DNA of 64,000 nucleotides from Terriglobus roseus DSM 18391 (GTDB lineage Bacteria; Acidobacteriota; Terriglobia; Terriglobales; Acidobacteriaceae): the NCBI RefSeq assembly GCF_000265425.1, contig NC_018014.1, forward strand, positions 3,844,001 to 3,908,000. Reading direction: 5' to 3'. Made by a program: the position numbers and the translations under genes. This document shows positions 44,896 through 61,757 of the stretch, in pieces (positions within the stretch are counted from its first letter, which is position 1; every line of letters starts with the position of its first letter). The notes below the pieces were generated by a model that was not told the origin of the DNA, made no database searches, and worked only from the letters and a program-made list of their open reading frames with translations.

Positions 44896-45747
44896 TTAGT
44901 TGACCTGCGGGCTTGAGAGAGAATGTGCCGCGTACCGGCCAAGTTCGGTCACATGAGCGCACACCGGCCGCAAGGTCGCCAGGATGCGATCTGCCGCAGC
45001 CGGCTCTGGCAGTCGCAGATCTACAAAGAAGATGTACTCCCAGGGCTTTCCGGGCACGGGCCGCGACTCAATACGCGTCAGGTCAGCGCCCTCGGCAGCC
45101 AGCCGCCGAAGCGCCTCCACCAGCGATCCAGGCTGGTGACGCAGATCGAACGCCAGGCTCATCTTGTCGACAGCCGCACCCGCCGGGCGAAGTCGCTCCG
45201 CATCCTCCGGCCGCGCCAGCAGAAAGAACCGCGTGAAGTTCAGCGGATCGTCCTCAAGATCGCGCGCCAGAATGTCTGCACCGTAGACGTGCGCAGCATG
45301 CGGCGCGGCAATCGCGGCAGCATCCTTCTCCCGCGTCGCCATCAGGTGTTTCACCGCACCGGCTGTGTCGTAAAACGGAACGGCCTGGATGCGCGGATGC
45401 CGTGCAAAGAACCGTCGGCACTGCGAAAGCGCCACAGGATGAGACAGCACACTGCGAACATCGGCAAGCGACACACCAGGCGCCGCCATCAGCGCATGCC
45501 GGATACGCAACGAAAGCTCCGCAACAATGATGACGCCATGTTGCAGGATCAGGTCCGAGTGATCGGCGACCGCGCCATGCAGACTGTTCTCCACCGGCAA
45601 TACCGCCGCATCCGCTTCGTGGGTGCGCGCCAGCTTTTCAAACACCTCTACCGAAAGAGCACACGGAACAAGAGAGACCTTGCCCAACATCTGTTCCGTT
45701 GCCATATGGCTATTCGAACCGGGTTCACCTTGAATTGCGATCTTCAC
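44896..45747 (-). CDS. pheA: Prephenate dehydratase
   Basis: This encodes 283 residues. PDT domain (IAIQGEPGSNSHMATEQM, LPVENSLHGAVADHSDLIL, SHPVALSQCRRFFARHP, NFTRFFLLAR) followed by a C-terminal ACT domain (KMSLAFDLRHQPGSLVEALRRLAAEGADLTRIESRPVPGKPWEY in parts), which normally binds Phe for feedback inhibition. There is no chorismate mutase domain. The start is a GTG at 45747 with GAGGAGA upstream. Last steps of Phe synthesis. Confidence 0.93.
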   Translation of the reverse strand: MKIAIQGEPGSNSHMATEQMLGKVSLVPCALSVEVFEKLARTHEADAAVLPVENSLHGAVADHSDLILQHGVIIVAELSLRIRHALMAAPGVSLADVRSVLSHPVALSQCRRFFARHPRIQAVPFYDTAGAVKHLMATREKDAAAIAAPHAAHVYGADILARDLEDDPLNFTRFFLLARPEDAERLRPAGAAVDKMSLAFDLRHQPGSLVEALRRLAAEGADLTRIESRPVPGKPWEYIFFVDLRLPEPAAADRILATLRPVCAHVTELGRYAAHSLSSPQVN

Positions 45748-58715: not shown

Positions 58716-59369
58716 ATGGAACTTCAGGGCTACGGAATGACACAGAACAACACGACGCCGCCCGCTGGTCACTTCAAACGGAATCCTCCGATTGCAGGTG
58801 AAGCGGACGCGCTGGAGCGCGCGAAGAACGGCGATCCAGACGCATTTTCGAAGCTCTACGCATTGCATAAGCGCCGCGTCTATACGCTGTGCCTCCGCAT
58901 GCTTGGCAATGTCTCTGAGGCAGAGGACATGACGCAGGAAGCCTTCCTGCACCTCTACCGCAAGCTTGGCTCCTTCCGTGGCGAGAGTGCCTTCTCCACC
59001 TGGCTGCACCGTCTCACGGTGAACCTGGTCTTGATGCATCTCCGCAAGAAGGGCCTGCAACTGGTCTCTCTCGAAGAGACCATCAACCCTTCGGAAGAAG
59101 ACGCACCAAAGCGAGACTTCGGGTCGCGCGATCCACGTCTCTCCGGTTCAGTCGACCGCGTTGCTCTCGAACGAGCTGTCGCAACGCTGCCTCCGGGCTA
59201 TCGCCTGGTCTTCGTGCTTCACGACGTCGAAGGGTACGAACATAACGAGATTGCCGGCATGCTTGAATGCTCGACCGGCAACAGCAAATCTCAGTTGCAT
59301 AAAGCGCGACTGAAATTGCGGGAAATTCTGCGGCAGAACGAACAAGCCGCCTTGGTGGAGTCGAAATAA
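58716..59369 (+). CDS. ECF-type RNA polymerase sigma factor
   Basis: This encodes 217 residues. Region 2 has DAFSKLYALHKRRVYTLCLR, EDMTQEAFLHLYRKLGSFRG and FSTWLHRLTVNLVLMHLRK; region 4 has LERAVATLPPGYRLVFVLHD, YEHNEIAGMLECSTGNSKSQ and LHKARLKLRE. It is of the group related to RpoE. The stop overlaps the ATG of the next gene, which is likely to code for its regulator. Confidence 0.94.
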   Translation: MELQGYGMTQNNTTPPAGHFKRNPPIAGEADALERAKNGDPDAFSKLYALHKRRVYTLCLRMLGNVSEAEDMTQEAFLHLYRKLGSFRGESAFSTWLHRLTVNLVLMHLRKKGLQLVSLEETINPSEEDAPKRDFGSRDPRLSGSVDRVALERAVATLPPGYRLVFVLHDVEGYEHNEIAGMLECSTGNSKSQLHKARLKLREILRQNEQAALVESK

Positions 59370-59650
59370 TGCCGGACAGAGAAGAAAAGCGTTGGACCTG
59401 CGCAGAGTTCGAAAAGGAACTGCCAGAACTCTTTGAGCGCGCCGACGGTGGCAAGCTGAGCGCTGACCCGCGCTTCGCCGAAATCCTGCGCGACTGCCCC
59501 CAGGCCGCCGAACTCGTACGCGATCTCGAATACATCGCAGAGACTGCACGCATGTTGATGGAGCCGGAAGGCGAAGTCCCAAGCCAGGACCTGTGGGCAA
59601 AGATCGAACGCGAAATCGAGATCACACCCAAAGACGACATCGTTCAGTAA
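59369..59650 (+). CDS. Small partner of the ECF sigma factor (probable anti-sigma)
   Basis: This encodes 93 residues, acidic and soluble with no membrane helix: CAEFEKELPELFERADGGKL, then CPQAAELVRDLEYIAE. It lacks the HxxxCxxC zinc motif of standard ZAS anti-sigma factors; only two cysteines are present. Its position (ATG overlapping the sigma stop) is the evidence for an anti-sigma role. I cannot exclude another role. Confidence 0.7.
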   Translation: MPDREEKRWTCAEFEKELPELFERADGGKLSADPRFAEILRDCPQAAELVRDLEYIAETARMLMEPEGEVPSQDLWAKIEREIEITPKDDIVQ

Positions 59651-59667
59651 GGCTCTCGAACAATCCG

Positions 59668-59695
59668 AAAAGGCGGGCCCTGGGGCCCGCCTTTT
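59668..59695 (+). terminator. Terminator of the sigma operon
   Basis: AAAAGGCGGGCCC and GGGCCCGCCTTTT pair around TG. This perfect stem ends in a T-run, 17 bases after the stop codon. Confidence 0.92.
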
Positions 59696-59700
59696 CTTGC

Positions 59701-59741
59701 TTGCCACAGCCGCCGAGACCGGTGTAAGCTCTCGCACAGAG
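59701..59741 (+). promoter_or_regulatory. Candidate promoter of the aroK leader
   Basis: TTGCCA (59701-59706) and TGTAAG (59723-59728) with 16 bases between them make a plausible sigma-70-type promoter. Transcription would start close to 59735, only a few bases before the leader ATG. It lies after the terminator of the previous operon, so a promoter is needed here. Confidence 0.45.
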
Positions 59742-59831
59742 ATGTCGCAGACCTTCCAGACCGTTTGCTTTACCTACCGCTACTGGTATCCAGTGGCGGC
59801 GACGGCGTTTCCTGCGAACTTTACGCTCTAA
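59742..59831 (+). CDS. Leader peptide rich in Phe/Tyr/Trp codons, upstream of aroK
   Basis: A 29-codon frame: MSQTFQTV then CFTYRYWYP and PANFTL before TAA. Codons 9-17 read Cys-Phe-Thr-Tyr-Arg-Tyr-Trp-Tyr-Pro, so five of nine are aromatic, directly before a hairpin (ACTGG-TAT-CCAGT, 59781-59793) and 31 bases before a terminator, then aroK. This is the layout of transcription attenuators for amino-acid biosynthesis genes (pheA, trpE leaders). No strong ribosome-binding site is visible; the transcript may start within a few bases of the ATG. Function is inferred. Confidence 0.6.
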   Translation: MSQTFQTVCFTYRYWYPVAATAFPANFTL

Positions 59832-59862
59832 GTAACAGCGCAAAGAACACTCGATCCTCCTG

Positions 59863-59893
59863 AGCCGCGTCCCCCTAAGGGCGCGGCTTTTTA
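59863..59893 (+). terminator. Terminator between the leader and aroK (candidate attenuator)
   Basis: AGCCGCGTCCC and GGGCGCGGCT pair, with one bulged T, around CCTAA and are followed by TTTTTA. It lies 31 bases after the leader stop codon and 42 bases before the aroK start, so readthrough decides aroK expression. Confidence 0.8.
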
Positions 59894-59934
59894 CTGTCCA
59901 ACCGCCCCACAAACCGGCTTCACCTGAGACCATC

Positions 59935-60507
59935 ATGACGAGCATGCTTGCCGAACCCACCACCGACAACATCACCCCCACCGCGCCCCTCTCCGCCGAC
60001 CGCATCGTGCTGACCGGCTTCATGGGCGCGGGCAAGAGCACCGTTGGACGCCTGCTCGCAGCAGAACTCGGCTGGCAGTTCGCCGATGTCGATGCCGAAG
60101 TGGAAGAGCGCTACGGTTCGACCATCGCGCAGATGTTCTCGGCTCTCGGCGAGGCGGAGTTCCGCCGGCGTGAATCAGCCGTCATCGCCCGCGCTCTCGG
60201 TCGCGGCAACGTCGTCATCGCCCTCGGCGGCGGAGCACCCGAGACCCTGACCAACCGCTTGCTGCTGGAACAGACCACACGCACCGCAGTCGTATTCCTC
60301 GATGCGCCGTTCGAAATCCTCTTCGACCGCTGCGTCCTGCAGGAAGGCGCAGCAGTCCGCCCGCTGCTCATGGACGCCGACGCCGCAGCACAGCGCTTTC
60401 GCCAGCGCGCCCCGATCTACCGCCGCTGCGCAAAGCATCACGTCAGCACGGCCGATCAGCATCCACAAGAGACAGTCACAGCAGTGCTCCGGCTCCTGCG
60501 CGCCTGA
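59935..60507 (+). CDS. aroK: Shikimate kinase
   Basis: This encodes 190 residues. Walker A GFMGAGKSTVGRLLAAELGW; substrate residues in DVDAEVEERYGSTIAQMF; ALGGGAPETLTNRLL (the GGG loop); VVFLDAPFEILFDRC; lid RPLLMDADAA; and RAPIYRRCAKHHVSTA. It makes shikimate-3-phosphate in aromatic amino-acid synthesis. It is preceded by the aromatic-codon leader and terminator. Confidence 0.95.
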   Translation: MTSMLAEPTTDNITPTAPLSADRIVLTGFMGAGKSTVGRLLAAELGWQFADVDAEVEERYGSTIAQMFSALGEAEFRRRESAVIARALGRGNVVIALGGGAPETLTNRLLLEQTTRTAVVFLDAPFEILFDRCVLQEGAAVRPLLMDADAAAQRFRQRAPIYRRCAKHHVSTADQHPQETVTAVLRLLRA

Positions 60508-60641
60508 CTTGGGGACTACGCTCAACATCCAGAAGCACCTTGAACAGCGCTCTCGAAACGCCACTGTTCAACCTTTCGACTGAACGAACAGTAAATCGAA
60601 AGATAGGATCAACGGCTTTTGTTTGTCGTGCATCAGACGCG

Positions 60642-61757
60642 ATGACTGCATATCTCTGTGCACGTATCCACTGGAGGCCACACCTGAACGCCGATCTCGA
60701 ACCCGCAGCATTTCCCTCGCGCCAATTCCGCGAAACACGCAAGCACATCGTCTTTACGATCGCTTTGCTGGTGCTGCTCGGTGTCTTTTGGACCATTCGC
60801 CACGTCCTCGGAATCGTCTATCTCTCAGGCCTCTTCGCAGTCGTCCTCAACCCGATCGTCACAAAAATCGGCAAGATCAGGATCCGCGAAAAGCACCTGC
60901 CCAAGGCAGCTGCCGTCACCGTTCTGGTGGTCGTACTCTTCACAGCCATCACGCTCTTCTTCTGGATCGGTATGCCGCCCGTAGTCCGCGACTTCCGTAA
61001 CTTCCTTAACGATTTGCCCAGTCGCATCCCGACACTCATCAGCAAGTTGCACAAGGTGCCCATGGCCGACAAGATCGGCATGAACGATCTGAACAACCAG
61101 ATCACGGGATCCCTGGGTCACTTCGCTTCTTACGTCGTCAGTTCCCTCCCCACATGGGCGGAACATCTGCTCGACATCCTGACCGCAGTCATCCTCACCG
61201 TCTACTTCATCCTTGAAGGCGAAGAGGTCTACAAGTTCTTCCTCTCTCTTGTAATTCCCAAGTCTCGGGTGCGCCTCGCAAACACGTTGCTGATCGCAGA
61301 AGAGCGCGTCTCCCGCTGGCTGCTCGGTCAATTGCTCCTGATGGCCTGCGTCGCGGCCTACAGCATCATCGCCTTCCGCATCATCAACGTCCGTTACTAC
61401 ATCCTGCTCGGTCTCATGATGGGTCTGACCAACATCATCCCCGTAGCCGGCAACCTCGTCACCATTCTGCTGGTGGCCCTCATCGCCGCAGCCGACAGCT
61501 GGACCAAGTGCGGCCTCGTCTTCGCCGCCTACGCCATCTACGTGCAGTTTGAGAACGCCTTCCTGACACCTCGCATCATGAAGTCCAGCGTCGATCTCAT
61601 GGGCGTCTCCGTTCTGATCGCCCTCCTCTGCGGCACGGCCATCAGCGGCATCCCCGGCGCCCTCATCGCCGTCCCAACCGCCGCAGTCATCGTCGTCTTC
61701 GCAGATGAATACCTCGTCCAGCACGAGGATCCCGAAAGGCTCTCCGTACTCGACTAA
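60642..61757 (+). CDS. AI-2E-family (PerM-type) membrane transporter
   Basis: This encodes 371 residues with about eight helices: HIVFTIALLVLLGVFWTIRH, VLGIVYLSGLFAVVLNPIV, LPKAAAVTVLVVVLFTAI, ILTAVILTVYFILEGEEVYK, GLTNIIPVAGNLVTILLVAL and GVSVLIALLCGTAISGIPGA. The 'LGLMMGLTNIIPVAGN.V' segment is the family hallmark. Members export AI-2 or act as antiporters; this one's substrate is unknown. The start ATG at 60642 is one of several; one at 60540 also fits the frame. Confidence 0.9.
   Translation: MTAYLCARIHWRPHLNADLEPAAFPSRQFRETRKHIVFTIALLVLLGVFWTIRHVLGIVYLSGLFAVVLNPIVTKIGKIRIREKHLPKAAAVTVLVVVLFTAITLFFWIGMPPVVRDFRNFLNDLPSRIPTLISKLHKVPMADKIGMNDLNNQITGSLGHFASYVVSSLPTWAEHLLDILTAVILTVYFILEGEEVYKFFLSLVIPKSRVRLANTLLIAEERVSRWLLGQLLLMACVAAYSIIAFRIINVRYYILLGLMMGLTNIIPVAGNLVTILLVALIAAADSWTKCGLVFAAYAIYVQFENAFLTPRIMKSSVDLMGVSVLIALLCGTAISGIPGALIAVPTAAVIVVFADEYLVQHEDPERLSVLD

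Follow-up and report, generated by a model that had tools for sequence, protein, structure and literature searches.

In the window, by which we mean the whole 64,000-nucleotide stretch of Terriglobus roseus DSM 18391 analysed here (NC_018014.1, positions 3,844,001 to 3,908,000), a short putative leader open reading frame (ORF) and two hairpins are found upstream of aroK, the gene for shikimate kinase (Table 1). The leader is preceded by an ECF-type sigma factor gene, identified by Pfam, and then a 93-aa ORF (58716-59650). The 93-aa ORF is without a Pfam match and is perhaps the anti-sigma factor of the adjoining ECF sigma factor. A hairpin with a T tract follows these genes and had been taken, in an earlier note made from the letters alone, for the terminator of the previous operon. 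The hairpin is present and was chosen as a terminator by a fold scan, but it is missing from the results of the other terminator scan.

Table 1. Features of the aroK leader locus (coordinates of the window).
Feature	Position	Strand	Description
Terminator-like hairpin with T tract, following sigma factor gene and 93-aa ORF	59668..59697	+	sequence; fold scan
-35-like TTGCCA	59701..59706	+	TTG plus -10-like hexamer, 15-19 nt apart, in 83/127 elements
Extended -10-like TGTAAGCT	59723..59730	+	TAAGCT at 59725-59730, TG at 59723-59724
Leader ORF (putative), ATG 59742 to TAA 59829-59831	59742..59831	+	29 codons, encodes MSQTFQTVCFTYRYWYPVAATAFPANFTL
Leader hairpin P1 (regions 1:2), CCGCTACTGG-TAT-CCAGTGGCGG	59777..59799	+	perfect 10 bp, loop TAT
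Region 2 core GCGGC, 5' strand of the predicted antiterminator	59796..59800	+	pairing with the region 3 core in 20-21/21 aligned elements
Terminator stem-loop (regions 3:4)	59862..59889	+	11 pairs; T tract to 59892
Region 3 core GCCGC, inside the terminator stem-loop	59864..59868	+	
aroK, shikimate kinase	59935..60507	+	PF01202, 8.2e-41; regulated gene in the proposed model
AI-2E family transporter	60540..61757	+	PF01594, 1.1e-46; start codon tentative

The leader ORF, as read from the window sequence, contains the aromatic codons F10, Y12, Y14, W15 and Y16, and we propose F10, Y12, Y14 and W15 as its control codons. The ORF overlaps P1, for which a folding energy of -16.5 kcal/mol (z -5.6) was predicted, better than all 200 shuffles. 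The terminator (fold of 59862-59894, -20.8 kcal/mol, z -4.5) likewise beat all 200 shuffles. A terminator scan over 2 kb found 2 such sites where 2.1 were expected by chance; the evidence for this terminator therefore consists of its fold and its conservation. The frame with Phe, Tyr, Tyr, Trp and Tyr in codons 10-16, the small hairpin overlapping it, and the terminator followed by shikimate kinase had all been pointed out in the earlier note, and all were confirmed.

The same note had placed a promoter-like pair just after the previous terminator. TTGCCA and TAAGCT are indeed present, separated by 18 nt, and the arrangement recurs in relatives. A TTG followed 15-19 nt on by a -10-like hexamer was found in 83 of the 127 elements described below, compared with 1.6% of shuffled upstream regions, and in these 83 the distance from the end of the hexamer to the leader ATG is 6-14 nt, mostly 9 or 10. 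However, a strict consensus promoter scan of positions 59000-61000 listed no promoter. A Shine-Dalgarno-like GGAG, GAGG or AGGA precedes only 7 of the 127 leaders. This conserved promoter-like motif lies so close to the leader, with its end some 10 nt upstream of the ATG, that the mRNA is probably almost leaderless and has a 5' UTR of very few bases at most. In the window, transcription would start near 59736-59738.

A search with the peptide sequence indicated that the leader is conserved in other genera (best non-self E 9.2e-6). Across 150 genomes of the family, 55 contained matches at E<=1, mostly weak ones. The best non-self matches had aroK, DAHP synthase or trpB downstream, and some reflected merely the P1 palindrome; several minus-strand matches were rejected as this palindrome read backwards. 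A hairpin pattern search, in which the reversed control yields chance matches too, was combined with inspection and provided 21 seed elements (5 before aroK, 5 before DAHP synthase, 11 before trpB), which form alignment A1. The covariance model R1, which comprises P1 plus the terminator, had matches at E<=0.01 in 250 of 398 family genomes (some chance matches included) and 130 of 349 class genomes (chance matches included), and at E<=1e-4 in 43 of 347 phylum genomes (again including chance matches); the three genome samples overlap. The best R1 match had an E of 1e-7 or less in 21 class genomes outside the family. A plasmid search with the window element gave no match. The aromatic codons of the small frame and the terminator are conserved in relatives, a point on which the earlier note had made its proposal depend.

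A subset of the R1 matches, 142 in all, was classified by the next downstream gene (tblastn, representatives named by Pfam), with loci repeating an already classified place counted once. The set consists of 82 matches (21 seeds, 60 further ones from the family, one from the own genome), of 40 picked mostly from other families and low scorers, and of 20 more. In 127 of the 142 the next gene belongs to the aromatic pathway, being aroK, trpB, DAHP synthase (DAHPS) or chorismate mutase/prephenate dehydratase (CM/PDT). The first 122 loci comprised 43 before TrpB, 29 before AroK, 18 before DAHPS, 23 before CM/PDT and 9 before none of these; the later 20 included 14 with an aromatic-pathway gene downstream. 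All 116 matches scoring at least 37 bits (21 of them seeds) lie before aromatic-pathway genes, and so do 11 of the 26 that score less. The remaining 15 of these 26 (9 + 6), which are not followed by an aromatic gene, were excluded when leaders were counted. Twelve further matches of at least 37 bits, outside the 127 leaders, precede TrpB (8) or prephenate dehydratase (3), or are cut by a contig end (1). The proposal of a candidate attenuator before aroK is thus supported by conserved codons, hairpin and terminator, but the element is not specific for aroK; it is also found before trpB, DAHPS and CM/PDT.

The three loci before prephenate dehydratase, L218-L220, which belong to a group outside the class, also have DAHP synthase further down; the peptide of their leaders, ..VDDRSRFYFYFYFPPSRGRGSMRAD, has many Phe and Tyr residues but no Trp. 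These three and L222, L224, L225 and L226 are from other groups of the phylum, and all seven have Phe/Tyr-rich leaders before CM/PDT genes; in L225 and L226 Trp is present as well.

The codon content of the leaders was compared in 113 elements. Between the ATG and the 5' arm of P1, 37.6% of the residues are F, Y or W, and a leader holds 5-6 of them on average up to the P1 arm, compared with 0.3-2.2 in the other two frames. In this segment Trp is encoded in 43/43 leaders before TrpB, 27/29 before AroK, 16/18 before DAHPS and 3/23 before CM/PDT. Counts over the whole leader, for the 127 elements, give a similar picture, with Trp in 32/32 (AroK), 43/43 (TrpB), 15/17 (DAHPS) and 1/7 (CM/PDT) leaders of family f1, and in 7/7 (DAHPS) and 7/21 (CM/PDT) leaders of other families. 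Leaders were filed by the first downstream gene, and many CM/PDT operons hold DAHPS too. The exceptions to the branch rule are the 8 of 28 CM/PDT leaders overall that contain Trp. Fisher tests for Trp in DAHPS versus CM/PDT leaders gave 0.0013 in f1 and 0.0058 in the other families, both values being too small, since the genomes are related and the counts as well as the tests therefore overstate independence. The proposed control codons match the regulated branch of the pathway. Aromatic codons are retained amid changing surroundings, as the upstream regions had been expected to show for an attenuator, and they vary with the downstream gene.

The seeds show that parts of the peptide itself are kept. 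Codon 15 is Trp in 21/21 seeds and codon 16 aromatic in 15/21, and the core F-T-Y/F-R-Y-W-x-P/T-V/I-A-A is strongly conserved, as would be expected of a functional peptide, which could be a small protein or could arrest the ribosome through its own sequence or through a bound free amino acid instead of slow decoding. However, the sequence after RYW shifts frame with the length of the P1 loop while the RNA stem stays, the residues before RYW vary yet remain rich in aromatics, and W is replaced before most CM/PDT genes. Because of these frame shifts, varying aromatics and exchanges of W, codon sensing combined with RNA pairing fits better than a fixed peptide, which we regard as unlikely.

Alignment A1 was used to count base pairs; a further alignment (A2) was left out, its structure being disrupted by insertions. 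In P1 plus the terminator 96.9% of the cells are paired and 5 pairs show two-sided, compensatory changes. The number of pair types (14) is not above that in shuffles (14.7). At one P1 pair, U-A replaces C-G in 7/21 sequences, a silent Tyr change (TAC/TAT) accompanying a change of Val GTA to Ile ATA. Variants in P1 loop length keep the stem and shift the reading frame of the 3' arm.

Region 2, which reads GTAGCGGCTC in many members, is similar to region 4 (GTCGCGGCTT); region 3 is complementary to both. The core of the predicted antiterminator, GCGGC with GCCGC, hardly varies in A1 and for this reason gives no covariation. Over the whole helix, 86.8% of the A1 cells pair, a value equalled by 148/500 shuffles, while slid versions pair in 28-52%; the covariation score of the whole helix was reached by 20/500 shuffles. 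Beyond the core, region 2 pairs with its own region 3 at 3.48 of 6 positions versus 2.98 in permuted combinations (82 distinct pairs). None of 5000 permutations reached this value, and the corresponding P values were 0.005 in f1 and 0.0002 in the other families. This test used 122 of the 127 elements, five without GCGG/CCGC anchors being left out. The uninterrupted antiterminator run in f1 was not above permutation (P 0.30). Folding of the emerging RNA was tried for 113 elements, six of which were left out with unparsed terminators, and joined regions 2 and 3 in all 107 elements with a parsed terminator; in 80 of the 107 the duplex z was below -1. In the window element, pairing of regions 2 and 3 is no stronger than in shuffles (duplex z -0.04; fold of 59790-59873, z +0.25). 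The antiterminator competing with the stretch 59863-59893, as suggested earlier, remains a candidate whose core is conserved, whose complementarity beyond the core is modest, and whose predicted strength in the window does not stand out.

A terminator with an alternative pairing would also suit a leader that is sensed by a protein or small molecule, as in a TRAP-like protein system, a T-box or a riboswitch, the ORF being incidental. The element matches no Rfam family at gathering score. In a search of the window with Rfam 15, the only match at gathering score was a tRNA elsewhere in the window, and 10 element loci gave 0 matches at gathering score. Matches listed by E-value were weak and unrelated. 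The aromatic codons, moreover, lie in one frame and vary with the pathway branch, and we consider a sensor of this kind very improbable.

At aroK the element is restricted. We inspected the 30 best AroK matches from 60 family genomes (57 had one), a sample that is not random and was chosen regardless of the leader. Five of the 30 loci carry the element: those of the four top-scoring matches, and one where the gene is incomplete at a contig end. The other 25 are without it, so aroK does not need the element. Several genomes without the element at aroK carry one at DAHP synthase or chorismate mutase. A search by AroK similarity alone found just two aroK loci among the contigs searched, both of uncultured Granulicella. 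Each of them has a leader rich in aromatic codons and a terminator recognised by eye, and R1 scores them at 48.4 and 32.1 bits. The assignment to Acidobacteriota is based on this similarity to Granulicella and on the earlier note. The 25 loci would fit an absence of regulation: the short ORF would be followed by a terminator that acts constitutively, or the hairpin would end a small RNA, and aroK would be transcribed from another promoter. This is hardly credible, as the element is present in several families and before more than one kind of aromatic gene. The strict scan listed no promoter-like site between the terminator and aroK, but it also missed the upstream TTGCCA/TAAGCT pair.

We conclude, with a probability of roughly 90%, that the element is a ribosome-mediated transcription attenuator of the trp/phe-leader type, which would sense charged Phe-, Tyr- and Trp-tRNA and control aroK. 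The parts of this model, their conservation, their association with genes and the branch-specific codons are read from the sequences; from these we infer where transcription starts, that the leader is translated and ribosomes stall on it, that the antiterminator forms in the cell, and how starvation acts, as follows. RNA polymerase would start slightly upstream of the leader ATG, by a few nucleotides. If aromatic amino acids are plentiful, the ribosome would run through the leader, and region 2 would be covered by the ribosome or held in P1. With region 2 unavailable, the terminator hairpin would form and transcription would stop before aroK. When charged aromatic tRNA is scarce, the ribosome would stall on F10, Y12, Y14 or W15 and cover the 5' arm of P1; the freed region 2 would pair with region 3 through their cores and prevent the terminator, and aroK would be transcribed. 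Without stalling, or without translation, P1 could hold region 2 and the terminator would form. The footprint of a ribosome usually extends about 15 nt from the P site, and a ribosome awaiting Trp-tRNA at W15 would, with such a footprint, just leave the GCGGC core free. Since the gene for the AI-2E family transporter lies directly 3' of aroK, it is possibly on the same transcript and so under the same attenuator.

The trp and pheA attenuators of E. coli, and that of pheST, consist of a leader ORF with control codons, a 1:2 hairpin, a 2:3 antiterminator and a 3:4 terminator. The element described here resembles them in its control-codon leader ORF, the 1:2 hairpin over the codons and the 3:4 intrinsic terminator, and would share the 2:3 antiterminator if the predicted pairing forms. 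Unlike them, one element family holds Phe, Tyr and often Trp codons together and stands before aroK, recurs with changed codons before several aromatic operons, and hardly ever has a Shine-Dalgarno sequence (7/127). The trp/phe-leader class as such is described in two sources (PMC1262725, PMC7298713). According to the latter, the RNA of Sinorhizobium meliloti trpL/rnTrpL starts at the leader ATG, i.e. is leaderless, and attenuates a trp gene (PMC7298713). The aroK element would share the leaderless start, to judge from its sequence, whereas rnTrpL as presented there responds to Trp only, belongs to Alphaproteobacteria and precedes trpE(G) (PMC7298713). The uORFC-13-1 motif upstream of aroF in Acholeplasma, a candidate uORF with Phe codon(s) and a terminator, is comparable by its description in having these parts before DAHP synthase, and by the same description differs in the organism, a ribosome-binding site and Phe as the only amino acid (PMC8632094). 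Candidate trp attenuators in Corynebacterium and Streptomyces, one of them before a trpB2A operon, are likewise classical attenuators outside Proteobacteria, but in the account given they have repeated Trp codons and belong to Actinobacteria (PMC1262725).

Attenuators have been predicted in Acidobacteria, reportedly with almost no associated functions (PMC2965389). The open-licence literature that was searched yielded no description of attenuation by aromatic amino acids in Acidobacteriota, and the earlier note knew of none for aroK there; a 2010 comparative survey (Lopatovskaya, Seliverstov, Lyubetsky) may hold some. The mechanism class is old. Possible novelties are its presence in this phylum, aroK as a target, a single scaffold used repeatedly with different codons, and a start of the message that is probably almost leaderless.

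With appreciably less confidence than for the attenuator itself, we favour the view that the elements represent a mobile attenuator module which has spread through several groups of a single phylum (probably Acidobacteriota). The same RNA scaffold, with its almost leaderless ORF, would have been placed before aroK, trpB operons, DAHPS and CM/PDT, and tuned for each branch by swapping Trp for other aromatic codons, so that all three amino acids would be sensed at genes of the common pathway, whereas the genes of the Phe and Tyr branches would respond to these two only. For a central pathway of the phylum, the elements offer a regulatory system that is concrete and can be tested, in which natural codon swaps predict the amino acid sensed by each copy. 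They also show one attenuator standing before different pathway genes from genome to genome, and may exemplify attenuation of an almost leaderless mRNA.

In the genome of T. roseus itself, the R1 matches L152, L154, L155, L156 and L159 were judged by eye to be chance matches. Its prephenate dehydratase domain lies within the window (45208-45741, minus strand; genome 3889208-3889741), and neither this gene nor the second DAHP synthase has an R1 match or, by eye, such a leader. A second element was found at 709899-710041, with the leader MTRAVSFWRFTFRYGAFSAAPKEHAL. Its score of 30.0 bits falls in a range where chance matches are common, but it is credible in view of its position and its leader. 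The genes behind it encode trpB, trpA, chorismate mutase, DAHP synthase, a dienelactone hydrolase and a prephenate dehydrogenase-like protein. This row of genes (709500-714500, L277) joins all three aromatic branches behind one leader.
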